Assembly: GCA_001830425.1 (NCBI GenBank)
Contig: MIAA01000002.1
Span: 1 to 32,288, forward strand
DNA from: Rhodospirillales bacterium RIFCSPLOWO2_02_FULL_58_16
GTDB taxonomy: Bacteria > Pseudomonadota > Alphaproteobacteria > Rhodospirillales > 2-02-FULL-58-16
Direction of reading: 5' to 3'
DNA length: 32,288 nucleotides
Shown here: positions 8,692-32,288 of the stretch, piece after piece
Numbering within the stretch: the first letter of the stretch is position 1
Layout: each line of letters opens with the position of its first letter
Made by a program: the position numbers and the translations under genes
Notes under the pieces: generated by a model
Databases searched by the model: none
What the model saw: only the letters and a program-made list of their open reading frames with translations
Told to the model about the DNA's origin: nothing

Positions 8692-8707
8692 AGGGTTCCT
8701 GTAGCGT

Positions 8708-16315: not shown

Positions 16316-17038
16316 ATGAAAAATTTTTACTCTTATCAATGGCCGAAAACCGTCACGCCTTTAACCGATGAGCAGAAGGCGATCAGTGACGATTTCATCA
16401 AGTACTGTCAGGAAGTCTTTCATCGTCAGTGGAGCATGCTTAATCAATTCGGAAGCATGTACCTTACGCGCAATATGCGCATCGCCGACGGCATGCGGAC
16501 TTTGGAGGTGGGAGCGGGAAACGGAGGCCATCTGCAATATGAGGACCTGACCCGGCAGGAATACTGGGTTAACGACAGACGCTCCAGCCAAGTCGATCTC
16601 ATCAAGTCGCGATTCCCCGATGTGAAGATCATTCAATCCGACTGCCAGGAAGGATTTGCCGTTCCGGACGGCTATTTCGATCGCATCATAGCCAATAACG
16701 TCCTGGAGCACCTCACCGATCTGCCGAAAGCGGTTCAACAATTTGAGCGCTTGCTGAACGGCAATGGACAGCTTGGAGTCATTCTTCCCTGCGACCCGGG
16801 CTTCGTACATCGCGTCGGTAAATATTTCACCACGGAGCGCGCATTCAAAAAACGCTACAAGCAACCCTATTCATGGTTCATCGAGAGCGAACACATCAAT
16901 GCGCCGGAGGAAGTCCTGCATGTGCTCTTAAAGCGCTTTAAAATCGTTCACCGTCGGCATTTCCCTTTTATCGCGCCGATCAAGCACATCAATTTGATGT
17001 TCGGCATGGTCCTTGAGAAGAAAAAGTCGGCGGAATAG
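16316..17038 (+). CDS. Class I SAM-dependent methyltransferase
   Basis: A 240-residue protein starting at MKNFYSYQWPK; the frame is open further upstream, but AAGGGA 5 nt before this ATG fixes the start. TLEVGAGNGGHL is motif I for SAM binding, followed by IIQSDCQEGFAVPDGYFDRIIANNVLEHL (motifs II-III of the Methyltransf_11 type) and GVILPCDPGF. The C-terminal part (YSWFIESEHINAPEEVLHVL) probably sets the acceptor. It faces the glycan locus and is often such a neighbour, so a sugar or lipid acceptor is plausible but unproven. A bidirectional terminator covers its stop. Confidence 0.85.
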   Translation: MKNFYSYQWPKTVTPLTDEQKAISDDFIKYCQEVFHRQWSMLNQFGSMYLTRNMRIADGMRTLEVGAGNGGHLQYEDLTRQEYWVNDRRSSQVDLIKSRFPDVKIIQSDCQEGFAVPDGYFDRIIANNVLEHLTDLPKAVQQFERLLNGNGQLGVILPCDPGFVHRVGKYFTTERAFKKRYKQPYSWFIESEHINAPEEVLHVLLKRFKIVHRRHFPFIAPIKHINLMFGMVLEKKKSAE

Positions 17039-17053
17039 CCGCCGGCTATTTTT
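17021..17053. terminator. Bidirectional intrinsic terminator
   Basis: A 9-bp GC-rich stem (17025-17033 with 17039-17047, one G-T wobble, loop AATAG) is flanked by an A-run on the left and a T-run on the right, so it works on both strands. It contains the stop codon of the methyltransferase and touches that of the SGNH gene, ending both converging transcripts. Confidence 0.8.
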
Positions 17054-18038
17054 CCAGATAGGGCGCGAGGGCTTTCGCCACGGCTTGATGCCCGTCGGCT
17101 TTCAAATGAAGATCAAGATCGAAATAGAAATTTTCCGGAAAAGACGTCTCCATCTCGATGACGCTCACCAAAGGCTCCCCCCCAACCTTTTGCTGTACGG
17201 CTCTTAAAAAACCCGAACGGGCGCGTCCCCGGCCATTCAGCTCGAAAATCAAGATGCGGGCCTGGGGGGCCATGGCGCGGATTTGCTCCAATAAAGGAAG
17301 GAAATATCCGCTCTCCTCCTCGGCGGGCATTGATTGTTCCCAGCTTTCCGGTTTGTGCTTCAAGTTTTTCAAAGTGTAATAGGTGTGCTTGAAAGGGAAA
17401 TAACGTCTGTTCCGGGAATGTTTACTGCTTAAGCGCTCATAGTCATTTTGCGATTTGATGGTTATGCCTTTGCTTTTAACCGCCTCTTTGTTTTCGGCGG
17501 CATCGTTCTCGCAATACTGTATTATTATGGTGCGCAGATGAGACAGGTCCAGACGCCGGAGCATGCGCTTCTCGCGTTCCGTGCCGAATGATGCGATACC
17601 GGCATTGAGTATTTTTTTATTTGTAACGGTTTGCAGAACCGAAGAGAACGTCTCGTTCTGTTCGACGCCCCAGCCCATGGCGAAAGAATCCCCGAGTACA
17701 ATAACTTCCGGCTTTTCCAGATCATCCTCGCTGTCGCGCAGTCCCGCAGAATTAATACTGTAGGAGGTGCTGAATTCACGGTTTGAAAAACGGCATTTTG
17801 CCCCTTTTTTTAGGGTGTAGAATGTTTCGGAATCATATTGTGCGCATTCCGGCATCATGGTGACTGAATAATGAACACGGCTCAAATACAAATAATCAAA
17901 ATGATTCTTTACATTTTCCGGAAGCGCTCTGGTGAGTTTAGGAAAAATTATAAAAACACTGAAGGATAATTCCAGTAATGCCAGTGACAATGCCAGCGAT
18001 AGCAAGTATGGCGGAAAAAGTTTTACTTTGCTCGACAT
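17046..18038 (-). CDS. Membrane-anchored SGNH/GDSL hydrolase, left module
   Basis: A 330-residue protein with an N-terminal transmembrane anchor (LLSLALSLALLELSFSVFIIF, about 11-31) and a periplasmic SGNH domain. Block I is VIVLGDSFAMGWGVEQNETF (catalytic Ser), block II the Gly in NAGIASFG, block III IIQYCENDAAEN (Asn), and block V DLHLKADGHQAVA (catalytic Asp and His). SGNH enzymes of this layout cleave or transfer acyl groups, often O-acetyl on polysaccharides. It is last in the nine-gene left operon, 3 nt after the GT-C gene. A paralogue closes the right operon (29523-30581). Confidence 0.8.
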   Translation of the reverse strand: MSSKVKLFPPYLLSLALSLALLELSFSVFIIFPKLTRALPENVKNHFDYLYLSRVHYSVTMMPECAQYDSETFYTLKKGAKCRFSNREFSTSYSINSAGLRDSEDDLEKPEVIVLGDSFAMGWGVEQNETFSSVLQTVTNKKILNAGIASFGTEREKRMLRRLDLSHLRTIIIQYCENDAAENKEAVKSKGITIKSQNDYERLSSKHSRNRRYFPFKHTYYTLKNLKHKPESWEQSMPAEEESGYFLPLLEQIRAMAPQARILIFELNGRGRARSGFLRAVQQKVGGEPLVSVIEMETSFPENFYFDLDLHLKADGHQAVAKALAPYLEK

Positions 18039-18041
18039 TTA

Positions 18042-19550
18042 TTAATTTTTCTTGCAGGACCAAAGATCATAGTAACTTAGAGCATCCGTCTTTTCATAGC
18101 GTTCCGTGAAAACATCTGCGGCCCGCCCGAACAGCCCGTGGACGCCGTAATAGCTTTGAAGCCTGAAAGGGGCTTCTCCCTTGGGAATCAGCCAATTGCG
18201 CGTTTTACACGCCTCCAACTCGGCGACGAACCTGTCAGTGTAATCAAAACCGGCGGCGTTGTACTCCATGACGTCCTTCGCGCTCACCGTGATCGGATTC
18301 CCGGCGAAAAGCAGGATCGGCTTGAAGTAGCTGAACCTGTAATTCTCAAGCGATTCGCCGTAACCGATCTCGATAGCTTCATCCTTGAATTTTTCCGCCG
18401 CTTCATGGATTTCCTTGGCCGTTTTCTCCTGCGCAATCCTGTCTATGTTCCTTATCAGACGCCGTTGCACGGGAAGCGAAATCACCAAAAATAAAATCGG
18501 AATCAGAGCTAAAATTCCCATTTGCAGACGTGGCGCATCATCAAATTTTTTGGCGAACCGCAGCATGGAGTCAATAGTAATCGCCAGCAACGGCAGAAAA
18601 TGGTGGGGGCCGGTGCCGGGAATGGAAGCCGGGTAAATCGAAATGGCGACGGTGACAACAAGAGCTGCGAAGTAAAGCGCATCCTTACCGTCCACAAAAT
18701 TCTTGCCTCGCGCCACAAGCCCGGCCAACAACAACACAGGTGAAAGGAAATACAGGGAGAACCTGAAAGACGTAGCAAGCATATTCGAATCAATGCCTCC
18801 CTTGGCGGCGAGAGCGCCGAAAAATTTATGGAGATATATGGTCAGAGAAATGCCCGGATGAATAAAAGGCAACAGGAACACGATGATGGATATAAGGCCG
18901 ATAATTACCATCTTGTAAACTTCCCTCCATCCGCATAAATCGAGGACGATGGGAATAAAGTAGATGAAGGAATGAATCTTGAGGTTTGTCGCCAATCCGA
19001 TGCACAACCCCACCACCACATAGGGGGTCCAACGCCCCCACCGCTCGATCGGCAAATCCTTAGCGAAAACAGCCAGCGTAACAAAAAACACGATGAACGG
19101 ATCAGAGCGGTTCCAAAAACTATACGGAGCGTAAATCATCAAAACTGCGATAAACATCAACACGCCGGCATATGCCTTGAAGGCTCCGAAACGCCCCCTG
19201 GCATAGAAATAAAAAAATAAAATGCTTCCCGCTGCGGCGATGGAGCCGGCCAGCTTGCTTAGAGGGATCGAGCCGCCGGCAATCTTAAAGACAACGGAAT
19301 GGAATATATAAAGCAATGGTCCGTAGCCGCCGACTTTCGGCCATTCGTGCGTATCCTGAAAAAGAGCATGCCCTTTCATGAAGCGCCAGGCGGATATGGC
19401 GATGCTTGGCTCAATATGATCAACATAGCCTTCCAGATTCCCATAAAGAAAAAGCACATAAACAAAATAAGCCGCGCACAAGGCGGCTGAAACGGCGAGA
19501 ATCAGGACGAACGGCCCGGACTCAAAAGTTCTTTGGCGGTTGCTGTACAA
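18042..19550 (-). CDS. Polytopic GT-C-type glycosyltransferase, left module
   Basis: A 502-residue membrane protein with about ten to twelve hydrophobic segments. The first periplasmic loop has YVDHIEPSIAISAW, an acidic motif as in ArnT/PMT-like (GT39, RgtA/B/C/D-like) enzymes that use polyprenyl-phosphate sugars. A soluble C-terminal part (about 370-502) follows. The frame begins at a TTG (19550) overlapping the FkbM gene by 29 bases, with a weak GAGAG ribosome site; the first ATG lies inside conserved sequence, so the TTG is likely. The donor and acceptor are unknown. Confidence 0.7.
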   Translation of the reverse strand: MYSNRQRTFESGPFVLILAVSAALCAAYFVYVLFLYGNLEGYVDHIEPSIAISAWRFMKGHALFQDTHEWPKVGGYGPLLYIFHSVVFKIAGGSIPLSKLAGSIAAAGSILFFYFYARGRFGAFKAYAGVLMFIAVLMIYAPYSFWNRSDPFIVFFVTLAVFAKDLPIERWGRWTPYVVVGLCIGLATNLKIHSFIYFIPIVLDLCGWREVYKMVIIGLISIIVFLLPFIHPGISLTIYLHKFFGALAAKGGIDSNMLATSFRFSLYFLSPVLLLAGLVARGKNFVDGKDALYFAALVVTVAISIYPASIPGTGPHHFLPLLAITIDSMLRFAKKFDDAPRLQMGILALIPILFLVISLPVQRRLIRNIDRIAQEKTAKEIHEAAEKFKDEAIEIGYGESLENYRFSYFKPILLFAGNPITVSAKDVMEYNAAGFDYTDRFVAELEACKTRNWLIPKGEAPFRLQSYYGVHGLFGRAADVFTERYEKTDALSYYDLWSCKKN

Positions 19551-20331
19551 AAGTATCTCTCTTTATGGTCTCGATGCTCTCTACCGATTCGTGAACGTAA
19601 AATGTGTCCTCCACCGAATTTCGGACGAAGCGGTAGCCGTTTCCGAACAGGACAGCATTAAGTTCCGCCGACGGTCTTTCGATGGTAAGCGCCAGAAATG
19701 TGTATTTATCGAACGGGAAGTTTCTAAGAATTCTGGTTTCCGCCCCTTCCACGTCGATGGTGAAGTAATCAATGATGGACGGTGCGCCGAGTTGGTCAAG
19801 AATCTTTTCCAGAGTCGTTGTTTTCACCATATTGATGCGTCCGGCCTCGCGGGATTTCTCAATTCTGCCCGAACGTTGGTTCGGATTGTTGTCGGTATCC
19901 TCATGGATAATGCCGCCCATTTGGCCGGAGAACATGAACTCCACATCTGATTCCTCGGCATCAACCACCTTCTGTACGCATGTGCATGTTCGTTTGAATT
20001 TTTCCGTTAACTGCTTGAATAGAAGAGGGTTAGGCTCAATGCAGATACCTCGCCATCCATAAATTTTTTCAAGAATATAGGTATTGCTTTCACTGAAGCC
20101 GTCGGCGGCGCCGAGATCGAGGAAAAAACCATCCCGTTTGCCTCGGAAGACCTCATCAATCACCCATCGGTCCTGGCCGCCGAAGGACAGGCTTTGCGGC
20201 TTGTATCCAAGGTGAACCACGAGCACGTAAAGGAACGCATTTTTCAGGTCAAGCAGCGCGGCATAGCATAGACGTGCAGGCAATCGTAGTCCGGGGAAGC
20301 GGTTGATCAGGTTTTTTAGGGCGCGGATCAT
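19522..20331 (-). CDS. FkbM-family methyltransferase
   Basis: A 269-residue SAM methyltransferase. FFLDLGAADGFSESNTYILE is the SAM motif, then GICIEPNPLLFKQL, and DYFTIDVEGAETRILRNF is the FkbM family signature. These enzymes O-methylate hydroxyls, here most likely a sugar in a surface glycan. The ATG at 20331 is preferred; a TTG two codons upstream is also open and sits too close to the AAGG. It starts 7 nt after the GT2 stop, and its 3' end overlaps the GT-C gene. The right module has no FkbM gene, so it is an addition to the left one. Confidence 0.87.
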   Translation of the reverse strand: MIRALKNLINRFPGLRLPARLCYAALLDLKNAFLYVLVVHLGYKPQSLSFGGQDRWVIDEVFRGKRDGFFLDLGAADGFSESNTYILEKIYGWRGICIEPNPLLFKQLTEKFKRTCTCVQKVVDAEESDVEFMFSGQMGGIIHEDTDNNPNQRSGRIEKSREAGRINMVKTTTLEKILDQLGAPSIIDYFTIDVEGAETRILRNFPFDKYTFLALTIERPSAELNAVLFGNGYRFVRNSVEDTFYVHESVESIETIKRDTFVQQPPKNF

Positions 20332-20338
20332 CGGCAAA

Positions 20339-21379
20339 TTACCTTATCGACCGGGGCGGCGACCAAATGACCCTTCCTCTGCCCAGCAGAGAGCGCAGAA
20401 CTCCGTATGACGCCCCCGCCGTGATGACGGCGCAGAACCAAAAATTCAATATTATCCCCATCGGCAGAAAAAAAGGTTTCTTGCGGATGATGAAAAGAAA
20501 AAAACCAAGATACCAATAAAGGTAGAGGCAAAAAGAAATGAACGATGGAATAATGAACAATGAATGCAGGAACAAAGCGGCGGCAAGAAAAATCAGGAAC
20601 AAGGGGCTGCTGACTGTGGACATGCCCGAAGGGGCGCTGCCGAGCGCGTTTGATTCGAATTTCTTGCGTTTTAAGAACATTTCCATCCACAAGGAAACCC
20701 GATGGAAATAGAGCCGAGTCATTTTACCGATGCCGTCGAAGTGGTGGCGCACTTGTAAATCCGGGTCCAGTTTATGGACGAAAGAAGCAGCGATGCGTTG
20801 CCCCATTTCTTCGTTCTCGTAATCCATTCCCCAGCCCAGGCTATCGTTATAGCCGCCGATTTTCTCATATACTTCCTTGCGAATTCCGGCGGCGGCCCCA
20901 TTGAAAATCTCATTGTCGAACATGCCGTGGCGCGCGCAGGTAAAGTAATTCAGCAGCGCCTTATAAAGAGGGGTGGCGCCGCTATTCAAGGGAGACTCAT
21001 TGTAAATCCCCGACAAGGCGTCGGCGCCGGTCTCCTCCATATGCTTGATGAATGTATCCAGTGTTTCCGGCAGCATCGCCGTATCGCTGTCAACGAAGAA
21101 AAGATATTCGCCGTCCGCCCGCTCCGCGCCCCGGTTCCGGGCTTGAGACGGGCCGCCGTTCTTTTCCAAGGGGAGCAATTTAACGACAGAGGGATGACGC
21201 GCCGTCATGTCTTTAATGACGTCGCGCGACTCGTCCGTCGAACAATCATCGACGACGATAATCTCCAGGGGCTTATAGCCGGTGGTTATTACGCTTTCAA
21301 CGCAGGCGGCGATTGTCGCGCCGGCGTTGTACATGGGGATAATGACGCTGATTTTTTTCTTTTCCATGCAAGAGATCAT
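20339..21379 (-). CDS. Family 2 glycosyltransferase with membrane tail, left module
   Basis: A 346-residue protein from the ATG at 21379, which overlaps the radical SAM stop (ATGA); a second ATG at 21367 is an alternative. The GT-A domain shows ISVIIPMYNAGATIAACVES, EIIVVDDCSTDESRD, ARNRGAERADGEYLFFVDSD (DxD-type) and DYENEEMGQRI (catalytic acidic motif). After about residue 255 it has two or three hydrophobic segments. It transfers a sugar from a nucleotide donor to a lipid- or glycan-linked acceptor at the inner membrane. The radical SAM-GT2 pair recurs in the right operon. Confidence 0.88.
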   Translation of the reverse strand: MISCMEKKKISVIIPMYNAGATIAACVESVITTGYKPLEIIVVDDCSTDESRDVIKDMTARHPSVVKLLPLEKNGGPSQARNRGAERADGEYLFFVDSDTAMLPETLDTFIKHMEETGADALSGIYNESPLNSGATPLYKALLNYFTCARHGMFDNEIFNGAAAGIRKEVYEKIGGYNDSLGWGMDYENEEMGQRIAASFVHKLDPDLQVRHHFDGIGKMTRLYFHRVSLWMEMFLKRKKFESNALGSAPSGMSTVSSPLFLIFLAAALFLHSLFIIPSFISFCLYLYWYLGFFLFIIRKKPFFLPMGIILNFWFCAVITAGASYGVLRSLLGRGRVIWSPPRSIR

Positions 21380-22458
21380 TTGCCGATATTGCGTAGCGTA
21401 GAAAGAAGAACATTGGGATACAGGCTTGGATGCCACGCCACATTGGCGGCCAGCGCACATTCAAACGTGCATTTGCATTTTGATTCTTTGATCCACTTCA
21501 ACAGTTCCTGATTTTTCGGTTCAGCGAGAATATCGTGCAGCCGGAAATCACGGTCTCTCAGATTGCCCATGGTTTTGCCGAGTATCTCACAAGGCTGCAC
21601 ATCCCCCGTTTCACTTATAACCACAAGTTTCCGTCCTGCAAGGCAAGGAGTTACGAATTCATCATTGAATTCCGTGCGCATCATGATGTCGCGGGTGACT
21701 TCGGCTATTCCCCTGACGGCGGGAAACAGCAGGCCTTTTTTCTTTTTCTTTTCCAGGCCTTCGATAAAAGCGTTCACTTCGCGGTAGCGTTGATGCGAGA
21801 CCCGCTTCAATTCCGGATCCTTGATCGCTCCCCGGGCGTATGTCACCGAAATGTTGTCAAAGCGGAATTCCTCCGATAAGTGCTTGATCGTCGAAATCAT
21901 GGTCTCTTCGGAATTGGCTGAGAAGACGGAGTTGCATTCAAGCGCGAAGTTATCAAAGCGCTCCCTGAACGGGCTGATCTCCGCGTAGCTTTCCTGAATC
22001 TTCTTGTAGGAACCCGGCATGGAGCGCAATTCATCATGATCCTCCCCGATCCCTTCTATAGAGAAGGCGATGCGAAAAAAGGTGTCCGGATAAAGGGGAA
22101 GAATTTCTTCCAGATACGCGACCGCGCGGTCGGTCAACGAGGCGTTGGTTGGAACCGTCACCCGCATGGCGCGGGTGTGGTCCAAGATAATTTTCGTAAT
22201 TTCAGCAAGCTCTTTCCTTAGAAAAGGCTCGCCGCCGGTCAGGGACAATTGCAGGAGCGGACCGATATTGGGAGCCAAACGGCGGATTTCCTCAACAGTC
22301 AATTCATCCGGCTTTCGGCCCTTCTCGATCTCATCGAAATAAAAACAAAAATCGCAACGAAAATTACACCGGTTGGTCACATAGAAAATCAGATAGCCGA
22401 TGCGGCTTGGGAGAAGAAAACTCTCCAGCCTTTTAAGCTTGGTTTTAAGAGTGCTCAT
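21376..22458 (-). CDS. Radical SAM protein with SPASM-like C-terminus, left module
   Basis: A 360-residue radical SAM enzyme. The [4Fe-4S] motif is CNFRCDFC (Cys31, 35, 38), followed by LTGGEPFLRKEL. The C-terminal part has a Cys in TPCLAGRK, PCEILG, and CKCTFEC, spaced like SPASM auxiliary-cluster ligands. It belongs with peptide- or sugar-modifying enzymes found in glycan loci; the substrate cannot be told. It lies 9 nt downstream of GT4 and overlaps the GT2 gene. No ribosome site is obvious. A paralogue (25754-26806) with the same cysteine plan opens the right operon. Confidence 0.85.
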   Translation of the reverse strand: MSTLKTKLKRLESFLLPSRIGYLIFYVTNRCNFRCDFCFYFDEIEKGRKPDELTVEEIRRLAPNIGPLLQLSLTGGEPFLRKELAEITKIILDHTRAMRVTVPTNASLTDRAVAYLEEILPLYPDTFFRIAFSIEGIGEDHDELRSMPGSYKKIQESYAEISPFRERFDNFALECNSVFSANSEETMISTIKHLSEEFRFDNISVTYARGAIKDPELKRVSHQRYREVNAFIEGLEKKKKKGLLFPAVRGIAEVTRDIMMRTEFNDEFVTPCLAGRKLVVISETGDVQPCEILGKTMGNLRDRDFRLHDILAEPKNQELLKWIKESKCKCTFECALAANVAWHPSLYPNVLLSTLRNIGK

Positions 22459-22467
22459 TTAAAAAAT

Positions 22468-23610
22468 TTAACGCCAACCGATATGCATTTCTTTATAGAC
22501 AGCCTGATACTTCTCAAAAACCCTGGGCCATGTGAATTTTTCTTTAAACAATCCGATTGATTCCTCCGACATCCTTTTTCTTTCATCGGCGTTTTTAAAA
22601 AAATTAATTCTGTCGATTAACTCACCCAGGTTGTCCGGCTCTATCAGAAAACCGTTTTTTTCATTCTCAATGATCTCGGCGACTCCTCCGGCCCGGGCGC
22701 CGATAACCGGCAACCCGCACGCCATGGCCTCGACGAAAACATTTCCAAAAGATTCTCCGATGGAAGGCAAGACAAATACATCAGACTTTAACAACTCATC
22801 CGACACTTGAGCCTTATTCAACATGCCGAGGAATTGAACTCTGCCGCTACACGTCTTTTCAACGAGGTTCTCCAAAGATTTCCTTTCAGGCCCATCGCCT
22901 ACTATCACCAACTCCACATCGTCGCAACCGCCCACGGCGCTGATGACCAAATTAAATCGCTTCCATCCCACCAACCGTCCGACACTGATAAGACGTAAGG
23001 TTTGTTTGTCCCGGTCAATGACGGCCCGAGCATCCGCCGGGAGATCATCAGCGGCGTTCCATATGACTTTTATATTCGCGGGGCCGAGTTCTTTCTCGGT
23101 TGCCGTCTTCGCCGCGCGACTCATGGCGACGACGGCGGCGGCGTTCCTGACAATGGATTTATTAAAGGGGGCAAGCAGAAAATGAAGTAACTGGTACTGT
23201 CCGGAATTGAACTTCGGAACATCCCCGCCGAAAAGCGAGATCACATAAGGGACATCGCCATGATGCAGGAAAGACAACAGGCCGGACGGTACGGAAGCCC
23301 AATAGTGAACAAGGTCATAATTATTTTTCTTCAGCAGCTTTCTGAGTTTGCACGCCCCAAGCATGACGAACATAAGCATGCCGATAATGCCCGTATCCGC
23401 CCTGGATTTACGCCAAGTCGGAACCGTATGAAATTTAACGTTTTCAACGCTATCCGGAGATAATCCTGAGTGAATATCGGCGGCGGTCAAAACTTCCAGC
23501 TCAAGCAGATCGTTTTCACTGAGATAACTCAGGACATTGCGCGCCACCTGCTCGCCTCCGCCGCCGAACGGGGGAAGCGCGTAGGAAACAAACAGAACTT
23601 TTTTTCGCAT
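22468..23610 (-). CDS. Family 4 glycosyltransferase
   Basis: A 380-residue GT-B transferase from the ATG at 23610; TAGG lies 6 nt before it, and a TTG two codons upstream would crowd the site. The N-terminal Rossmann domain has VLFVSYALPPFGGGGEQVARNVL. The donor domain has LRLISVGRLVGWKRFNLV, ELVIVGDGPERKSLE and ESFGNVFVEAMACGLPVIGA with AEII, the EX7E-type motif of retaining GT4 enzymes. It adds a sugar from a nucleotide donor in the cytoplasm. It is upstream of the radical SAM gene and has no counterpart in the right operon. Confidence 0.92.
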   Translation of the reverse strand: MRKKVLFVSYALPPFGGGGEQVARNVLSYLSENDLLELEVLTAADIHSGLSPDSVENVKFHTVPTWRKSRADTGIIGMLMFVMLGACKLRKLLKKNNYDLVHYWASVPSGLLSFLHHGDVPYVISLFGGDVPKFNSGQYQLLHFLLAPFNKSIVRNAAAVVAMSRAAKTATEKELGPANIKVIWNAADDLPADARAVIDRDKQTLRLISVGRLVGWKRFNLVISAVGGCDDVELVIVGDGPERKSLENLVEKTCSGRVQFLGMLNKAQVSDELLKSDVFVLPSIGESFGNVFVEAMACGLPVIGARAGGVAEIIENEKNGFLIEPDNLGELIDRINFFKNADERKRMSEESIGLFKEKFTWPRVFEKYQAVYKEMHIGWR

Positions 23611-23668
23611 GAACAACCTATTGAGACATTACATCCGGCGATCCGCCCGCAAACCGAAGATGATGTTT

Positions 23669-24409
23669 CTAACCGATCCGCCACTTCAGGGTAACAATGG
23701 TTTTTATGACCCGGTAGATGTTTTTCAGCCTGAAAGCGGAACTGTGAGGGTTGGCGTCATTGAGCTTGACGCCGACTGTTTTGTAATCGGCGCCGCCCTT
23801 GAGCAATTTGATGACGGCTTCGGCCTGATAGGCGAAGCCGTCAGTCTCGATAGCAATCCGGCGCAGCAAATCGGTCCTGTGCAATACCAGCCCGTTATAG
23901 TAGGGAACATCAAGGTTAAACAGAAAGTTCATCAGCCGGGTAAAGGCGCGTGAAATGATTTGGCGTTTCACGCCCCGAACGCCCGGATTGGTGATAAAGG
24001 GGATAATCATATCCGCCTCGCCGGCGAGCCTGATGATCGGAGCCACTCCATCCGACGGATGATTATTGTCGCCGGGCACCATGATCACATATTTGCCGGT
24101 CGCATGACGGACTCCCGTTTTGTAGGCGCCGCCGAAACCGAGGTTCTTAAGGTTGGTGATATGTTTTATGTACGGTTTTTCAGCGGCTAATCGCGCCATG
24201 ATCTTGCCGCTGTCATCGCTGCCGGCGTCATCGACCAGAATAATTTCATAATCATTGACGCCGCATTCCAGCGCGGTACGATCGATCTCCTTGACGGCGC
24301 CTTCAAGGTGCGGCGCTTCGTTGTAACAAGGCACGACGAAGCTGATAAAAGGAGTATTCTTGTCGTGGTTATCGTGATCTCTGGTCATCGGTCGGGGCGC
24401 TTTTGTCAT
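23669..24409 (-). CDS. Family 2 glycosyltransferase, dolichyl-P-mannose-synthase-like
   Basis: A 246-residue GT2 with no C-terminal membrane domain. FISFVVPCYNEAPHLEGAV, YEIILVDDAGSDDSGKIMA, NLGFGGAYKTGVRHATGKYV and MVPGDNNHPSDG (metal site, with GDN in place of the usual DAD) are family features. Enzymes of this group charge a polyprenyl phosphate with a sugar. That would fit as donor supply for the GT-C protein of the operon. It lies between the winged-helix membrane genes and GT4, all on one strand. Confidence 0.87.
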   Translation of the reverse strand: MTKAPRPMTRDHDNHDKNTPFISFVVPCYNEAPHLEGAVKEIDRTALECGVNDYEIILVDDAGSDDSGKIMARLAAEKPYIKHITNLKNLGFGGAYKTGVRHATGKYVIMVPGDNNHPSDGVAPIIRLAGEADMIIPFITNPGVRGVKRQIISRAFTRLMNFLFNLDVPYYNGLVLHRTDLLRRIAIETDGFAYQAEAVIKLLKGGADYKTVGVKLNDANPHSSAFRLKNIYRVIKTIVTLKWRIG

Positions 24410-24462
24410 ATGAGATTTAAATCGGTTGCCGATGGTTATGGGGCCGCGACGCTATAAAGTCA

Positions 24463-24984
24463 TTAAGTTTGAAGCCGATTCACAAAGATCAGCCGCTTGA
24501 ACAGCGCGATAATAACGGCCATTACTCGGACTGTTTGGTTGCCGATATAAAGCCGTCCGTTTTGCTCAAAAATCTGACCGGTGTCCGATAGGCGTTTGAT
24601 ACGTCTGTCGATCATCTCCCGAGCGTTATAAAGAAAGTGGATTTCCTCGCGATCAAGGCCGTCGGGAAATCGGTTCATTTCGATCAGGATGCGGACGCGC
24701 CTGGCGGTCTCTCCCATGTTTACAAAGTGAAAATAGGTATAGGCCAAGGCTAGATAGGCCAGCAGATCGGCTATGCCGTTGCCGAAATCATTCCATGAGG
24801 GATCATCGAGCGGAAAAACCATGCCCTGGAGCGCAGAAAAGACCAAAAAGCCGCCCAGAAAGCCGATGCCGAGAGTCAACGGCGCGCCGAGCGCCGGGGC
24901 CAGACGGTAAGCAAAAATATGCCCGACTATCAGAAAGACGACACAGATTACAGGAACAAGGGCGGTAAACAGATCGGCGGTCAT
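24463..24984 (-). CDS. Membrane protein with winged-helix-like tail, second of a pair
   Basis: A 173-residue protein with four hydrophobic segments in the first 90 residues (LVPVICVVFLIVGHIF, then two more, and a helix ending YTYFHFV). The soluble tail (RRVRILIEMN, LDREEIHFLYNAREMIDRRIKRLSDTGQIFEQNGRLYIG) reads as a winged helix: a recognition-type helix, then a strand hairpin. A last amphipathic helix (VMAVIIALFKRLIFV) may return to the membrane. It resembles its upstream neighbour over the whole length. Its role is unknown. It sits 6 nt downstream of that neighbour and 53 nt before the GT2 gene. Confidence 0.6.
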   Translation of the reverse strand: MTADLFTALVPVICVVFLIVGHIFAYRLAPALGAPLTLGIGFLGGFLVFSALQGMVFPLDDPSWNDFGNGIADLLAYLALAYTYFHFVNMGETARRVRILIEMNRFPDGLDREEIHFLYNAREMIDRRIKRLSDTGQIFEQNGRLYIGNQTVRVMAVIIALFKRLIFVNRLQT

Positions 24985-24990
24985 AGGGTC

Positions 24991-25503
24991 TCATCCTCCC
25001 TTTTTCGCGGCGCCCAGCATTCCCCGGAATACCGTAAAGACACGGGCGATGAAACGACCCTTGGCGGTCAGCCGGTAAAAACCCCGGTCAAAAATAACCG
25101 CCCGCTCGCCGACCAGATCGTTCACTCGCGGCCACAGCAGGTTATCATCGTCAAGCCGCTCATAAAGCCGCTCGACGGGAAGGCCGTCCGAGCCGGCATC
25201 GGCGATCATGTCCACTATCGTCAGGGATGGGCTTTTTACTTCAATCGCCGGATAGGTCATGATGTAGCCGCACATCAGGGCCACATAAAAAACGAGCACA
25301 TGGATATATTCCATAACGCCGCCCGGCATAATATCCGCGCCCGCCTTTGCGGCAAGCAAACCGAGCGCCGTCAGGACAACAAAGGTTCCAACGAAAGTTC
25401 GTATCAGCGCCACCCCGGAATTCCTCGGGGGTGAAATCCGCCAGATCAAAACATGCGCCAGAAAGGCGACGGAAACGGAGGCAAGTCCCCAGATCAGAAC
25501 CAC
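24991..25503 (-). CDS. Membrane protein with winged-helix-like tail, first of a pair
   Basis: A 170-residue protein starting at GTG with AGGGG 6 nt upstream. Three hydrophobic segments (about 2-20, 37-55, 68-86) precede a tail (SLTIVDMIADAGSDGLPVERLYERLDDDNLLWPRVNDLVGERAVIFDRGFYRLTAKG) that fits a winged helix, followed by a hydrophobic RFIARVFTVFRGMLG. The plan, tail position and lengths match the neighbouring gene, so they are probably a tandem duplication or two subunits. It opens the left operon, so a membrane-bound regulator of the glycan genes is possible, but the tail could equally bind protein. No known family name is recalled. Confidence 0.6.
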   Translation of the reverse strand: MVLIWGLASVSVAFLAHVLIWRISPPRNSGVALIRTFVGTFVVLTALGLLAAKAGADIMPGGVMEYIHVLVFYVALMCGYIMTYPAIEVKSPSLTIVDMIADAGSDGLPVERLYERLDDDNLLWPRVNDLVGERAVIFDRGFYRLTAKGRFIARVFTVFRGMLGAAKKGG

Positions 25504-25753
25504 GGAAATCCCCTGATATACAATGACCGACTCATATTAGCAGTCCCAATTCATCGCGGATAGCGCCGCCGACACAAAAGGAAAAAGTTGACCTTGAATG
25601 GTTCTCCGATAACCTGATAACATCTCGAATAGATCGCAGAAGCGGAAAAATCAGCGCAATTCCGTAGTTTTGCACACGGCTGAATGGTGGTTGGGTTGCC
25701 TTCGATTTGAAGGTTGCCTGGGAAGTCTTCGGTTAAAAAGTATCCAGCCCGCA
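25504..25753. promoter_or_regulatory. Divergent promoter region of the two glycan operons
   Basis: A 250-nt gene-free stretch between the left (25503, minus) and right (25754, plus) operons, AT-richer than its flanks. A possible plus-strand promoter reads TTGAAT, 16 nt, GATAAC (25600-25627), weak. GGTTGCCT occurs twice (25694-25701 and 25712-25719) around a CCTTC/GAAGG stem (25699-25713). No operator palindrome long enough to be convincing was seen. A single regulator could control both operons from here, but that is an inference from the layout. Confidence 0.35.
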
Positions 25754-26806
25754 ATGGCGATTCAAAAAACTCAACCCGGCGCTCATTTCAAGCTCCTTGG
25801 CGAGGCGCTTCGATCCCGGATAGCGCCCAGGATCAAGCACGCCATATTGCATGTCACCAACTCATGCAACATGCGATGCCAGCACTGCTTCGTCAACTTC
25901 CAGAAGAAGCCTAATGACCTGACTCTGGATGAGATCAGGGGCGTCTCCGAGGCAGTCAACGACCTGATATGGTTGGATATCGGCGGCGGCGAGCCTTCTT
26001 TGCGCAAAGACCTGGCGGATGTCATCGGCCTGTTCCGATTCGAGGAGATATCGATCCCCACCAACGGCTGGTTTGCCGACCGCATAGTTTCCGTAGCCGA
26101 GGCCGTCAGCGGGCGTAATCCGGGGCGGCTGGTTGTCACCGTTTCTCTCGACGGCTTCAAGGAAACCCACGACGAGATGCGCCAGAAGGGCAGTTTCGAA
26201 CGTGCAATCGAGACCATCAGGCAACTGGGCCGACTTGCCGATGCGCGGGTCAAGATCAATACCGTGGTCTGCGAGCGCACCGTCGATGATCTGCCTGATT
26301 TCATGAAGTTCGTCCGCGACGAGTTGAACGTTGACTACCAGGGGCTTCTTTTGCTGCGCGGCAATCCCATAAACCCGTTGTATCGGCTGCCCTCCGTGGA
26401 GCGCCTGCGCCAGCTGGGCCGCGAGGTGCGACCCATACAGGACAGCTATAACTTCGGGCGCAAGGGACTGGGCGGCGTCGTTACCCGCAATTACCAGTCC
26501 TTCAAATGGAATATTCAGTTGGAGACTATCGAGAAGAAGACCCAGATCATCCCTTGTCTCGGCGGGCAGGCGCATGTGGTCGTTTATGACAACGGCGCCG
26601 TGGCCCCGTGCGAGATATTGCCGGCGGTGGGCAACGTGCGCGAACAGCCGATCACCGACATCCTGGCCGGCGTCGCCTGGGCCGAGGCCGTTGCCTCTAT
26701 AAAGCGCAAAGAATGCAGTTGCACCCATGACTGCAATCTGCTGGACAGCATCCTGTTCAACCCCTTGACCTATCCAGGGCTGCTCGGACTGAACGTATGG
26801 AAATAG
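25754..26806 (+). CDS. Radical SAM protein with SPASM-like C-terminus, right module
   Basis: A 350-residue protein from the ATG at 25754; an open frame extends upstream to 25670 but has no conserved residues. The cluster motif is CNMRCQHC (Cys38, 42, 45), then IGGGEPSLRKDL, and VTVSLDGFKETHDEMRQKG. The C-terminal cysteines (PCLGG, PCEILP, CSCTHDC) follow the same plan as the left paralogue, including the closing CxCxxxC. It ends in a short hydrophobic helix. Its stop overlaps the GT2 start by 10 bases, so the two proteins are made together. No clear ribosome site is visible. Confidence 0.85.
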   Translation: MAIQKTQPGAHFKLLGEALRSRIAPRIKHAILHVTNSCNMRCQHCFVNFQKKPNDLTLDEIRGVSEAVNDLIWLDIGGGEPSLRKDLADVIGLFRFEEISIPTNGWFADRIVSVAEAVSGRNPGRLVVTVSLDGFKETHDEMRQKGSFERAIETIRQLGRLADARVKINTVVCERTVDDLPDFMKFVRDELNVDYQGLLLLRGNPINPLYRLPSVERLRQLGREVRPIQDSYNFGRKGLGGVVTRNYQSFKWNIQLETIEKKTQIIPCLGGQAHVVVYDNGAVAPCEILPAVGNVREQPITDILAGVAWAEAVASIKRKECSCTHDCNLLDSILFNPLTYPGLLGLNVWK

Positions 26807-27726
26807 AAATCTCGGTAATCATTCCGTTCTACAATTCAGGCGAGACCTTGAGAGAGTGCATAGAAGGGGTGATGGCCCAGGATCATCCCGGCTTCGAGGT
26901 CGTCCTCATCGACGACGCCTCCACCGAGAACTGCTCAAGACATATCCCCGATGACCCCAGGGTCCGCGTCATCCGCAACAAAACCAACCTGGGTCCCGGC
27001 GGCTCCCGGAATGCCGGCTTCAAGGAGGCGAAAGGGAAGTTGATAGTCCTCATCGACAGCGACGCCGCCGTCGATGACCCCGGTTGGCTGTCCAAACACG
27101 CCGCCGCCCATGAAGGACAGACCGGAATGATCGTCGGCGGCGGCATAGAAGGTTGCGGAAAGGGCTTGGTGTCCATGGCCGACAAGTTCTGCCACTGGCA
27201 CACCAACATTCCCAATGCCGAGCCGTTTACCGTCAGGAAGGACACCCGCCGGCCCCTGGCTCAGGTGTCGCGCCATCTGGTCACCAACAACATGAGTTTC
27301 CTGCGGGCCACTCAACGAGAGTTGGGAGACTTCGACCCGGATTTCCGCACCGGCGAGGACGTGGACTTCTGTATGCGTGCTCTGGACATGGGCATGAGTT
27401 TGCGTCTGGAACCTTCGATCCTGGTTCGGCATTACGACCGGGAGAACCTCAAAGACTACTTCCGCTGCTTCTATATGGTCGGCAAGGACCGCATTCCCCT
27501 GAGGAGGAAACACAAATCGGGCCTGGAATGGCTGCTGCCCAAGAACGCCTTATCCACCGTTCTCTACGCGCCGGCGCTGTCTTTCGTTCTGCCTCTCACT
27601 ATAATTATGTCGTGGTGGAAGTACGACAAGACGGTGGTGTTGAGCTATCCGCTTCTGGTGGTCGCCTGCTTCGCCATGACCTGCGGGATATTTGCATTCT
27701 TTCGCGAGGAGGAAGCCGGATGTTGA
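26797..27726 (+). CDS. Family 2 glycosyltransferase with membrane tail, right module
   Basis: A 309-residue GT2: ISVIIPFYNSGETLRECIEG, EVVLIDDASTENCSRH, GPGGSRNAGFKEAKGKLIVLIDSDA (DxD-type) and FDPDFRTGEDVDFCMRALDMG (acceptor and catalytic acid motif). Two C-terminal hydrophobic segments (about 247-268 and 278-300) anchor it. It overlaps the radical SAM gene by 10 bases. It matches the left-module GT2 in architecture but is shorter. It is followed by a 106-nt gap before the polytopic gene. Confidence 0.88.
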   Translation: MEIEISVIIPFYNSGETLRECIEGVMAQDHPGFEVVLIDDASTENCSRHIPDDPRVRVIRNKTNLGPGGSRNAGFKEAKGKLIVLIDSDAAVDDPGWLSKHAAAHEGQTGMIVGGGIEGCGKGLVSMADKFCHWHTNIPNAEPFTVRKDTRRPLAQVSRHLVTNNMSFLRATQRELGDFDPDFRTGEDVDFCMRALDMGMSLRLEPSILVRHYDRENLKDYFRCFYMVGKDRIPLRRKHKSGLEWLLPKNALSTVLYAPALSFVLPLTIIMSWWKYDKTVVLSYPLLVVACFAMTCGIFAFFREEEAGC

Positions 27727-27832
27727 GTCGCATGTTGAAACCGTGCGGCTGATGCCTTATAGAAAGGCGCTTCCGCAAGGCTTGAGTAAACATGATGTTG
27801 ATTAATCCCACCGGTATTTCGGAAAAGCCGAG

Positions 27833-29530
27833 ATGAACAAGCCTCACGCCGTTTCCGCCCGGCAAGGGGATATGGATAATCACGCCGGCAACGGCTTATA
27901 TCTGACCATTTATGTCCTGCTCTACTTTCTGGCGTTTGCGCCCATGGCGTTGATCCAAGGTCCTTTGTGGGACGATTGGGTGTGGCGTTTGAGCAATGCA
28001 ACAAGCGCCAAGATGTGGCTTGATCTCGGTCGCCCTTATCACGGTCCTGTTTTTGACGCCTTGCAAGCCATGGGAGAATCATTTTCGGCCACCAGAATCG
28101 CCGTTTTCGTTATTTATTTTATTTCGGGGCTGCTGTTGTTCAGGGCGGCGACGGTTGCCGAGTTGGCAAGTCCAAGGAATGTTTTTTGGATCGTCCTGCT
28201 GACCATCTTGGCGCCGGTGAACATGGCTAGGGTAATTGAGGTTAATCTGCCTTATCCGTTAAGTTTCTTTTTTTATTGCCTGAGCTTTTATTTTCTGGCG
28301 GGGCATTTCGCCGCCGGCAGGATCATTGCGCGCCTTTTATCCTTATTTTTCTTGTTTCTTTCGTTCGCCACCCCATCCTTCCTGGTGTTGGCGGTTGTTC
28401 CGGCTTTATTCATTTACTACAACGCCGTCGGCCATATTCCGAAATGGGGAAGCCTTAAGACGGACGGGATGAAAATATTGAGATGCGTCGTCCGGTATTT
28501 CGATTTTCATGCGGCGCCCGTAGTTTTTTTTATTATGAAATCAGCCTTTTTCGAGCCGTCCGGTATATTCAAAAATTACAACGTCATAACTTTTAAGGGC
28601 TTGTTATGGGGAACCGTAGAGGCGGCGCAAACTGCAATCTACAACCTGTACATGCTTTTCTCCCCCGCATTCAAGGAGCTGTTGACTCCCTTGGATTCAA
28701 ACAATGTGCTGACCGAAATCATGGCGGTTTTATTGCTGGCTTTGCTGGCGCAGGCGGCGTTGCCGCGCCTAGCGGGCAAGCGCCGATTCTTCGCGGCGGA
28801 AGATAATTCTTGCCCAAGCCTTGGCGTACTTTTTTTTGGGCTGGGCTTGGCGTTTGCGCTGCTGATGCTTGCCATCTACCCGTATGTAGTGGTTAAGAAA
28901 TTTCCCCACCCCATCGGCATAGCCTCGCGTCATCAAACATCCTTGCATTTGTTCATCGGCGCGTTTGTCTTTTTTGCTGTTATGATCTTGGCTAGGCCAA
29001 GGATTGTTTATGGCGTTCTGGCTCTGGTCGCCGGCTTGTTCACGGCCACCAACTGCATTAACTATGTATCTTATCTTAAACACAGTCATGTGCAGAGCGC
29101 GATCATCGAAGAAATACGCAAGACACCGGAAATACGCGCTCATACGACGTTCGTCTTTGATGAAAGCAGGCGTCCCAACATGGCTTCCGGCGATTCGTCG
29201 CGTTTTCCCGAACTTACCCATTTCATGGCGAAGGCTTTTGGCGAACACACCCGTCTGGGAGCGCCATATCTTGACAATGTTTTAGACTGGCGCAAGAAAA
29301 CGGAGAAATATGCAAGCACCTTCGCTGCATACAATCCGAATTATGCCTATGACGATTATCGGCCTGACGGGAGAATCTTCATCGTCCGCGTCGAACCGGG
29401 AAACAAGCGCCTGAACATGATGAGCGCCTTGACCATGGCCTATAATCAAAGATTCAACAAGGAATCCTACGCGCAAGGGCTTCAGGGGCTGGTCCGTCTG
29501 GTGGTAAATGAAATAATCACCGATGACTGA
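27833..29530 (+). CDS. Polytopic membrane protein, GT-C-like, right module
   Basis: A 565-residue protein with about ten hydrophobic segments. An early loop has GPLWDDWVWRLSNATS, an acidic D-D-W motif like that in the first periplasmic loop of GT-C enzymes. The C-terminal 100 residues are soluble and of unknown type. It occupies the same operon place as the left-module GT-C protein, but sequence similarity is faint by eye. The ATG overlaps the stop of a 14-codon upstream ORF (27792-27836, ATGA), possibly a leader. It is AT-richer than the radical SAM and GT2 genes before it, which suggests a different history. Confidence 0.5.
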   Translation: MNKPHAVSARQGDMDNHAGNGLYLTIYVLLYFLAFAPMALIQGPLWDDWVWRLSNATSAKMWLDLGRPYHGPVFDALQAMGESFSATRIAVFVIYFISGLLLFRAATVAELASPRNVFWIVLLTILAPVNMARVIEVNLPYPLSFFFYCLSFYFLAGHFAAGRIIARLLSLFFLFLSFATPSFLVLAVVPALFIYYNAVGHIPKWGSLKTDGMKILRCVVRYFDFHAAPVVFFIMKSAFFEPSGIFKNYNVITFKGLLWGTVEAAQTAIYNLYMLFSPAFKELLTPLDSNNVLTEIMAVLLLALLAQAALPRLAGKRRFFAAEDNSCPSLGVLFFGLGLAFALLMLAIYPYVVVKKFPHPIGIASRHQTSLHLFIGAFVFFAVMILARPRIVYGVLALVAGLFTATNCINYVSYLKHSHVQSAIIEEIRKTPEIRAHTTFVFDESRRPNMASGDSSRFPELTHFMAKAFGEHTRLGAPYLDNVLDWRKKTEKYASTFAAYNPNYAYDDYRPDGRIFIVRVEPGNKRLNMMSALTMAYNQRFNKESYAQGLQGLVRLVVNEIITDD

Positions 29531-30581
29531 GAAGCCGTCGTTGCCGAGCCGCCTGCTTACTCTGGCGGCGGCCATCGTCCTTGCCGCCTTGGCCCTTGAG
29601 GGAATATGCAGGGTTTTTATGCCCCACTGGCAAGACTATGACAGCGGGCGGTTCATGCGCTCCGTCATCGTCCCGAATTTCGGAGAGGTCAGTACGGGGA
29701 TGCCGGAATTCGATGACTATTTCGCCCAGAAAGACGGTGATTTCCGCGTCCGCGTTTCGATCAACGGCTTCGGTCTGCGCAATCTGCAAGCGGTGGAGTT
29801 TGCTGACGAACGTATTTGGGCGGTCGGGGATTCCGTGACCTTCGGCTGGGGCGTAGAAGCCGATGAAATGTATTCATCGATAATCGCCCGCCTCGCCGCT
29901 AAACCGACATACAATATCGCCTCGCCGGGAACCGACGTCTGCGGCTACCAGGCGCTTATCGCCAGGATGCCTGAAACATTCCGGCCCAAGGCGGTGATTA
30001 TCGGTCTGGTTCTTGAGAACGATGTCGGCCATTACGAAGGATGTCAAAAGCGGGCGGAACTGACGGCGGCGGCGAAGACCACCCCCGAAGCCGGAAAGGC
30101 CGGCCTTCTCGGCGCCAAGAAATGGCTGACCCGATATTCGGCCCTTTACAACGTCCTCGCCGTCTCAATCAAGCGACTCGATGCAATCAGGGATTTTATG
30201 ACAAAAATCGGCATTATCAGCAAGTCGCACGACTCTAAACGATCCTTCGATGAAGGAGAAATTGAAATCATGACCGATAAGACGGCAGCCGAGTTCGTTC
30301 GCCTCCGCTCCATTCTGCCCGAGGCAACCCCTCTCGCCGTTCTGATCGTCCCAGGCCGCCTGGAGATTCGCGACGACCACCCGTCATTTCGCAAAATGCG
30401 CCTGATGATCAGCGCCAAACTGGATGCCGTCGGCATCAAGGTGATCGATCCCTTCGAGGAATTCAAAAAGGCCGGGCTTGCCGCCACTCACTTCGCCCAT
30501 GACGGACACTGGAACGCGCCGGGCCATGAAATCGCCGGGCGAGCCGCCGCCGATTGGATCAAGAGCATCAACATTGATTAA
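29523..30581 (+). CDS. Membrane-anchored SGNH/GDSL hydrolase, right module
   Basis: A 352-residue protein, N-terminal anchor LLTLAAAIVLAALALEGICRVF (about 12-33), then an SGNH domain: IWAVGDSVTFGWGVEADEMY (catalytic Ser), a Gly in NIASPGTDV, IGLVLENDVGHYEG (Asn) and HFAHDGHWNAPGHEIAG (catalytic Asp-x-His). The GWGVE extension after the GDS block is shared with the left paralogue at 17046, which supports duplication. It probably removes or transfers an acyl group on a periplasmic glycan. It overlaps the upstream membrane gene by 8 bases, and its stop overlaps the convergent gluconokinase stop by four. Confidence 0.8.
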   Translation: MTEKPSLPSRLLTLAAAIVLAALALEGICRVFMPHWQDYDSGRFMRSVIVPNFGEVSTGMPEFDDYFAQKDGDFRVRVSINGFGLRNLQAVEFADERIWAVGDSVTFGWGVEADEMYSSIIARLAAKPTYNIASPGTDVCGYQALIARMPETFRPKAVIIGLVLENDVGHYEGCQKRAELTAAAKTTPEAGKAGLLGAKKWLTRYSALYNVLAVSIKRLDAIRDFMTKIGIISKSHDSKRSFDEGEIEIMTDKTAAEFVRLRSILPEATPLAVLIVPGRLEIRDDHPSFRKMRLMISAKLDAVGIKVIDPFEEFKKAGLAATHFAHDGHWNAPGHEIAGRAAADWIKSINID

Positions 30582-31063
30582 ATTCCCAATCCGGCGCGGA
30601 TAGCGGCGACGATGGAGGAAGGAGCGCCGCCGACATCCACGGCAACGGCGTCTTTCGGCTCTTCCAGAACGGCGAACTGACTTTCAAGAAGCGCCGTCGG
30701 CATAAAATGTCCGCCGCGTTTATATAGGCGGTCGCGGATAAGCTTTTCATCGCCCCTGAGGTAGACCAGCCGCACATCCTTTTTTCCGGCCATCAACATG
30801 TCGCGGTAGCTTTGCTTGAGCGCCGAGCATGCCAGCACCATATCCCGTCCTTCCCCAATCCATTGGTCCACGGCGGCGGCGATAGAGGCAAGCCACGGCT
30901 TCCTGTCTTCATCGTCCAGGGGGATGCCGCTTTTCATCTTGTCGATGTTGGCGGGCGGGTGAAAATCATCACCCTCGCGGTAATCGGCGCCCAGCGCCCG
31001 CGCCAGCAGGGTCCCCACCGTGGTCTTCCCCGCTCCGCATACGCCCATAATGATGATAATCAT
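30578..31063 (-). CDS. gntK: Gluconokinase
   Basis: A 161-residue kinase from the ATG at 31063; the same frame stays open to 31423 through the inserted element but that part is not gluconokinase. IIIIMGVCGAGKTTVGTLLA is the Walker A region. FHPPANIDKMKSGIPLDDEDRKPWL and VLACSALKQSYRDML are GntK signatures, with GGHFMPTALLESQFAVLEEP in the lid region. It phosphorylates gluconate to 6-phosphogluconate, feeding the Entner-Doudoroff or pentose phosphate routes. GGGG lies 4 nt upstream. It was probably coupled to the lactonase before a MITE separated them. Confidence 0.93.
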   Translation of the reverse strand: MIIIIMGVCGAGKTTVGTLLARALGADYREGDDFHPPANIDKMKSGIPLDDEDRKPWLASIAAAVDQWIGEGRDMVLACSALKQSYRDMLMAGKKDVRLVYLRGDEKLIRDRLYKRGGHFMPTALLESQFAVLEEPKDAVAVDVGGAPSSIVAAIRAGLGI

Positions 31064-31076
31064 TTTACCCCGCGAA

Positions 31077-31352
31077 CCTGGAGTACTATCCGGCCAAATT
31101 GAACCGCCTGCGCCGGAGGGATTTTCCGGCGCGGGCAGGAAAAGGGCGCAGCGCGTAGCGTACACTACGGGCAAGCCCTTTGACAAACCCGCGCCGAAAA
31201 AGACCCCGGCCCTTCGGGTTGCGCCTTGGCGGACGCCCGCTTCGTTGCGCCGCTCAACCGATGCTTTTGCATCGCTTTTCACGTCGCGCCTGACGGATCG
31301 CCTCGCCAATGCGCAACGCAGATGATTCAATTTGGCCGGATAGTGCTCTAGG
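31077..31352. mobile_element. MITE-like element inserted between gluconolactonase and gluconokinase
   Basis: A 276-bp unit with 27-bp terminal inverted repeats (31077-31103 and 31326-31352, 25 of 27 matching; core ACTATCCGGCCAAATTGAA, 19 bases identical). No transposase is encoded, so it is a non-autonomous element. Internal hairpins occur (CGCCGGA/TCCGGCG near 31110-31130). Excising it restores a normal lactonase ending (Arg-Phe-Ala-Gly-stop) one base before the gluconokinase ATG. No clean target-site duplication is seen. A reading frame through it stays open in the gluconokinase phase. Confidence 0.75.
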
Positions 31353-32237: not shown

Positions 32238-32288
32238 GATCACCTTTTTTTGTGCAGAAGATCGAAGATGACGCTTGAGTTCTTTTCG

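Follow-up and report, generated by a model that had tools for sequence, protein, structure and literature searches.

The genome of Rhodospirillales bacterium RIFCSPLOWO2_02_FULL_58_16 carries, within one 13.5-kb stretch, two versions of a conserved gene pair that encodes a radical S-adenosylmethionine (SAM) protein with a SPASM/twitch-type domain and a membrane-anchored family 2 glycosyltransferase (GT2). The stretch lies on contig MIAA01000002.1, in the 32,288 nucleotides analysed here (the window, to which plain coordinates refer), and is organised as two divergent operons, with the right arm on the (+) strand and the left arm on the (-) strand. The right arm runs in the order radical SAM/SPASM protein, GT2, polytopic protein with nine transmembrane (TM) segments and SGNH hydrolase. 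The left arm opens with two small 3-TM proteins, a GT2, a GT4, a radical SAM/SPASM protein and a GT2 with C-terminal TM segments, and continues with an FkbM methyltransferase, a PMT_2-like GT-C protein and an SGNH hydrolase. The conserved unit comprises two genes, not four, and the arms are not copies of one another, since each bears its own version of the radical SAM-GT2 pair. On balance we think it probable, if only just, that each arm represents one copy of a glycosyltransferase-coupled radical SAM system, of different subfamilies, that edits a sugar by radical chemistry. The genes of the two pairs are:

21376..22458, - strand: left-arm radical SAM/SPASM protein (twitch-like), 360 amino acids, member of the glycosyltransferase-coupled radical SAM family (PF04055, E 1.6e-17; SPASM, E 2.7e-5)
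20339..21379, - strand: left-arm GT2 partner, 346 amino acids, three C-terminal TM segments (PF00535, E 1.6e-36)
25754..26806, + strand: right-arm radical SAM/SPASM protein, 350 amino acids (PF04055, E 7e-14; SPASM, E 7e-6)
26797..27726, + strand: right-arm GT2 partner, 309 amino acids, two C-terminal TM segments (PF00535, E 3.6e-30)

The genes of each pair overlap, by 4 nt in the left arm and by 10 nt in the right, where gene calling set the start of the radical SAM gene to 25754 instead of 25670. Both GT2 partners match PF00535 above the Pfam cut-off. Both radical SAM proteins have the PF04055 domain with a CX3CX2C motif and match PF13186 (SPASM) above its cut-off, and they have a common cysteine plan, as a previous sequence-only reading of this DNA had noted. 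An alignment of 42 diverse homologues shows that C31, C35, C38, a GGE motif, N105, S133, C272, G285, C290, E291, C328, C330 and C334 are invariant, giving the family motifs CX3CX2C and CX12GX4CE..CXCX3C (in residues, C272-X12-G285-X4-C290 ... C328-X-C330-X3-C334). As read from the alignment, this cysteine set corresponds to a normal radical SAM cluster together with a shortened, five-cysteine SPASM/twitch set. Each of the two window proteins scores far below the cut-offs of its 25 best NCBIfam families, and for the 42 members the best match among the best 25 of 46 families was AhbD (E 2.2e-29, cut-off 500 bits).

Related loci were collected by a genome-wide scan with a three-sequence radical SAM alignment (A1), which gave 80 loci, those most similar to the left-arm protein and bearing one of two sequence patterns; further searches added more. 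Genes outside the window were called with a codon-usage script, and GT2 and radical SAM matches were identified with profiles for which the window proteins served as seeds. In loci chosen by their radical SAM gene alone, a GT2 gene was adjacent (same strand, within less than 300 nt) or fused to 42 of the 52 radical SAM genes that bear the signature, compared with 100 of the 852 remaining genes that these loci contain (12%; odds ratio 32, p 2.5e-27). Relatives lacking the signature were paired in 8 of 33 cases (p 3e-7 compared with the signature-bearing set). Seven natural fusions were found, all in the order GT2-TM-radical SAM and one of them in this genome, and in unfused pairs the GT2 gene may lie either upstream or downstream. 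Paired loci span 15 named phyla in addition to Diapherotrites, Patescibacteria and UBP9, and include archaea. Distances in the radical SAM and GT2 trees are correlated (Mantel r 0.49, a value reached by 0 of 2000 permutations, none of which exceeded 0.28), and the partner of the nearest radical SAM relative was within the three nearest GT2 proteins in 36 of 53 cases.

The genes that neighbour pairs are glycan genes, encoding GT2 and PMT_2 proteins, asparagine synthases and epimerases. The right-type pair also stands by itself amid housekeeping genes in three loci (L115, L116 and L095) and with one FkbM gene in a fourth (L117). In a sister subclade, represented in Parabacteroides distasonis and in locus L101 from a spirochaete metagenome-assembled genome (MAG), a GT1/GT28-like enzyme takes the place of the GT2, which argues that the link of the radical SAM protein is to glycosyl transfer and not to one glycosyltransferase family. 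The P. distasonis locus (L136:5938-8415) has the signature-bearing protein WP_009275239.1 adjoining the GT1/GT28-like WP_005862038.1, downstream of fumarate reductase genes. A search for phage carriage of the GT2-radical SAM fusion gave no match. No description of the pair was found in the open-licence literature on radical SAM proteins with GT2, FkbM, SGNH or surface polysaccharide.

The sequence-only reading had instead described a duplicated four-gene module, radical SAM, GT2, polytopic protein and SGNH hydrolase, running away from a common gap in both arms. Two divergent operons separated by 250 nt are indeed present, given a radical SAM start at 25754, and the FkbM, GT4 and further GT2 genes that it placed in the left arm are all confirmed by domain matches. 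The proposed order is found in the right arm; in the left, the radical SAM gene is the fifth of its operon, preceded by two 3-TM genes that had been overlooked and then by the GT2 and GT4 genes. The four-gene order was seen in none of approximately 90 related loci, so that as a defined system the module reduces to its radical SAM-GT2 part, which is recurrent and apparently undescribed.

Comparison between the arms likewise speaks against duplication. The radical SAM proteins share 30% identity over 344 residues (E 2e-40) and are the only between-arm pair to exceed generic superfamily similarity: the GT2 partners are similar only across a 94-residue GT-A core, no similarity could be detected between the polytopic proteins (E 0.23), and the SGNH proteins share 33% identity over 96 residues. 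In quick LG+G4 trees the left radical SAM protein groups with those of L025, L118, L026 and L093 (support 100), the right with L095, L087/L115, L116, L117 and L090 (support 99), and a third copy in this genome, on contig C52, with L120 (support 100). A clade uniting left and right was rejected, being 138 log units worse (approximately unbiased test, p-AU 1.1e-6), and one uniting left and C52 was likewise rejected. The GT2 tree gives the same groupings, placing the window GT2s in different clades, each with the partners of its own radical SAM protein's relatives. The radical SAM and GT2 proteins of each arm thus have closer relatives in other phyla than in the opposite arm, and the left SGNH protein is nearer to a protein of genome G465 (36% identity over 277 residues) than to its right-arm counterpart. 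In-place duplication of a four-gene module followed by divergence would account for the similar gene order and for the motifs common to the radical SAM proteins and to the SGNH proteins, including the GDS..(M/F)GWGVE block that both of the latter do contain, but in view of the rejected sister relationship, the unlike polytopic proteins and the absence of the order from the other loci examined, we give it scarcely any credence.

The left radical SAM protein gave a confident AlphaFold2 model (pLDDT 93.7, pTM 0.91). Its closest folds were SkfB (Z 23.0, 273 residues aligned, 3.2 Å) and BlsE (Z 22.1, 289 residues aligned, 3.3 Å), which are nearly tied, followed in order by SuiB, viperins, anSME, DesII (Z 19.4) and BtrN (Z 16.2); this ranking leaves room for any radical SAM family not among the structures listed. 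The sequence match to BtrN is restricted to the twitch part. The modelled fold is compatible with peptide, nucleotide or sugar substrates and does not decide between them. A sugar is nevertheless the substrate we favour, because of the constant glycosyltransferase partner, the glycan neighbourhoods and the failure to find a precursor peptide. In the scheme that we propose, the membrane-anchored GT2 would act at the cytosolic face, where it passes a sugar on to a membrane-bound acceptor. The radical SAM protein beside it would rely on a 5'-deoxyadenosyl radical, together with a single auxiliary Fe-S cluster, to remove a hydrogen atom from the sugar, be it donor, acceptor or product, and this sugar may be nucleotide- or lipid-linked. 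The sugar would thereby be oxidised, epimerised, deoxygenated or decarboxylated. The further enzymes of the arms, namely the GT2 at 23669, which resembles polyprenyl-phosphate-sugar synthases, the GT4, FkbM and GT-C-like proteins and the extracytoplasmic SGNH enzymes, would extend the glycan, which would afterwards be methylated and either acylated or deacylated. The part of the sequence-only reading that placed these genes in the making and modifying of a surface glycan is thus likely to stand as regards their location in glycan-building loci, and the domains, invariant cysteines, pairing, fusions, joint inheritance and lack of duplication are shown, whereas the substrate and chemistry given here are what we infer.

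Several points weigh against this scheme. The best fold and profile matches include SPASM enzymes that modify peptides (SkfB, SuiB, anSME and PqqE), and we know of no reaction for any member of this radical SAM branch. Loci of the same clade are not independent, so that the Fisher p value for pairing is overstated, and GT2 genes are common in these loci. No GT2 gene adjoins 10 of the 52 signature-bearing genes, L090 holds the radical SAM gene alone, and family members are mostly MAG sequences.

Among the closest known systems is mycofactocin, where a radical SAM/SPASM gene likewise keeps company with a gene for a membrane GT2: those for MftC (radical SAM/SPASM) and MftF (GT2) co-occur (PMC3023750). 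By analogy with this established case the window pairs could belong to a system resembling those for ribosomally synthesised and post-translationally modified peptides, the radical SAM protein modifying a small peptide and the GT2 glycosylating it, as would suit the SPASM peptide maturases found as nearest folds and profiles and the fact that MftF is the best NCBIfam match of the right GT2 (E 1.6e-35). That match, however, reaches 123 bits against a cut-off of 280, and no member tested attains the cut-offs of MftC or MftF. Moreover, no conserved small open reading frame that might encode a precursor was found around nine pairs, so that no counterpart of MftA was seen there, and the left and C52 operons have no room for such a gene. 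In contrast to mycofactocin, the two genes of the window type are frequently joined in one fusion, and they are found either by themselves or within glycan loci. The maturases SkfB, SuiB and anSME, for their part, act on peptides or proteins, whereas the present family combines five SPASM-region cysteines (CX12GX4C..CXCX3C) with the lack of a nearby precursor. We therefore regard the peptide route as quite unlikely. Modification of a lipid anchor, polyprenyl or other, for example by adenosylation in the style of HpnH and followed by glycosylation of the lipid by the GT2, is also unlikely: it would fit the membrane anchor of the GT2 and the fusions, which place the radical SAM protein at the membrane, but the HpnH model scores 38.6 bits against a cut-off of 225, and the auxiliary-cluster domain would point to chemistry of a redox type. 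It might finally be argued that there is no functional tie, and that radical SAM and GT2 genes merely co-reside in glycan islands rich in both. B12-binding radical SAM genes are indeed frequent there too (12 of 53 paired and 10 of 35 unpaired loci), yet the background pairing of 12%, the repeated fusion, the mirrored trees and the isolated two-gene cassettes outside glycan islands make this very improbable.

A sugar-editing role has parallels among radical SAM enzymes. The auxiliary region is of the twitch type, as in BtrN, which acts on an aminocyclitol, and the fold is close to those of DesII, which acts on a TDP-sugar, and of BlsE, a twitch/SPASM radical SAM enzyme that decarboxylates cytosylglucuronate (PMC3715490). 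Identity in the fold alignments to BtrN, BlsE, DesII and SpeY is, however, just 12-17%. These four enzymes function in antibiotic pathways, and none is known to have a membrane GT2 as its partner. Radical SAM genes beside glycosyltransferase genes have been described in a probable lipooligosaccharide locus on a plasmid of Brachyspira hyodysenteriae (PMC4267127); a search with the left radical SAM protein at 1e-15 gave no Brachyspira plasmid match.

The remaining features of the two arms are:

17046..18038, - strand: SGNH/GDSL hydrolase, left arm, N-terminal membrane segment (PF13472, 35.2 bits, cut-off 32.9)
18042..19550, - strand: polytopic GT-C-like glycosyltransferase, 502 amino acids, seven TM segments (PF13231 PMT_2, 25.5 bits, cut-off 26.1)
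19522..20337, - strand: FkbM-family methyltransferase (PF05050, E 1.3e-11; TIGR01444 above cut-off)
22468..23616, - strand: GT4 glycosyltransferase (PF00534, E 2.6e-36)
23669..24409, - strand: soluble GT2, nearest to the ArnC/dolichol-phosphate-mannose synthase type of polyprenyl-phosphate sugar synthase (PF00535, E 5e-21)
24463..24984, - strand: small 3-TM protein, possible C-terminal winged-helix-like part (gene call; no Pfam match)
24991..25503, - strand: small 3-TM protein, encoded at the head of the left operon (gene call; no Pfam match above cut-off)
25504..25753: divergent intergenic region between the arms, 250 nt (between gene calls, assuming the radical SAM start at 25754)
27833..29530, + strand: polytopic membrane protein, 565 amino acids, approximately nine TM segments (resembles GT-C proteins only in its topology and in a DDWVWR motif that follows TM1)
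29523..30581, + strand: SGNH/GDSL hydrolase, right arm, N-terminal membrane segment (PF13472, 31.0 bits, cut-off 32.9)

Neither SGNH nor GT-C genes are tied to the pair in other loci. An SGNH hydrolase was considered as a core member and rejected, as an adjacent one occurs in a single locus (L043) out of some 50 related loci, and the best readable SGNH relative of the left protein, a homologue in G465, stands amid unrelated genes. The left protein has the Ser, Gly, Asn and His blocks of the family and is weakly LA_2490-like, and the right, with a Pfam score just under the cut-off, has readable GDS, GT, END and DGHxxxxGH blocks. Each enzyme has a membrane segment at its N-terminus and its catalytic blocks are intact, and both would act outside the cytoplasm. 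The left polytopic protein matches the Agl23-like TIGR03663 (E 1e-5). ArnC and dolichol-phosphate-mannose synthase (DPMS) are among the best solved relatives of the soluble GT2 at 23669, and because it is nearest to them the GT-C protein may be supplied with a lipid-linked donor that is made by the left arm itself. This would resemble the logic of ArnC-ArnT or of DPMS with GT-C enzymes, although the PMT_2 match lies just under the Pfam cut-off. The right polytopic protein has no Pfam or NCBIfam match, a search of 372 genomes from the class gave no homologue, and its single-sequence model (pLDDT 41) was discarded. The tandem 3-TM proteins have possible winged-helix-like C-termini and weak mutual similarity (E 0.001); neither gave a family match, and for that at 24463-24984 no second copy was found in this genome. 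A consensus sigma-70 promoter was sought in the 250-nt divergent region and none was found.

The third family member in this genome (G000) is a GT2-TM-radical SAM fusion of 693 residues (C52:164864-166945; L010:12865-14946), divergent from genes for a 502-residue polytopic protein and an FkbM protein. The left radical SAM protein matches this copy better (E 2e-50) than it does the right-arm protein. The G+C content of the left arm is 48-52%, against approximately 60% in the sulphate and succinate dehydrogenase genes further left, and any family member is found in just 7 of 100 relatives. From the trees, the G+C content and this sporadic occurrence, it is most likely that the arms, which belong to different subfamilies, were acquired separately. 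A class I methyltransferase gene flanking the left arm (16316-17038) has an 89% identical homologue in the relative G004, where no arm adjoins it; the next gene there, in the place of the left arm, is B12-radical SAM-like. In L093:2632-12078, from the UBP9 genome UBA6111, two non-sister pairs, one of them left-type, lie divergently 4.3 kb apart, so that the side-by-side arrangement is not unique to the window. Selection may favour the gathering of unlike pairs at a single locus, but two cases prove little.

Genes for a gluconokinase (30578-31063) and an SMP-30 gluconolactonase (31254-32243) converge on the right arm. Gluconate metabolism was considered as a partner, a gluconokinase gene also following the pair in L116 and 6-phosphogluconate genes lying near L090, and was rejected as chance neighbourhood since G004 keeps the gluconolactonase-kinase operon without the arms. 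Also in the vicinity are a B12-binding radical SAM protein just beyond the window (L012:996-2444; C2:32995-34443), a sulphate assimilation cluster at 5975-11535 with a GTPase-APS kinase fusion, two PAPS-reductase-domain proteins and sulphite reductase, and, apart from the arms, another gene with a GT2 domain (2019-2690) towards the left end of the contig.

Sugar modification in surface glycans is usually regarded as a matter of enzymes acting on nucleoside diphosphate (NDP)-sugars. Quite possibly, though we would not yet call it probable, an unnamed radical SAM family that spans phyla and is hard-wired to glycosyltransferases (GT2, and in one subclade a GT1-like enzyme) edits sugars during the assembly of membrane-linked glycans. 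If so, many uncultured bacteria and archaea would carry surface-glycan sugars that cannot be predicted from their NDP-sugar pathway genes, and radical chemistry during assembly would be a source of part of glycan diversity. The two-gene unit, available in isolated cassettes or as one fusion protein, is simple to express and test, and the family signature could allow annotation pipelines to name many genes now called merely 'radical SAM protein'.

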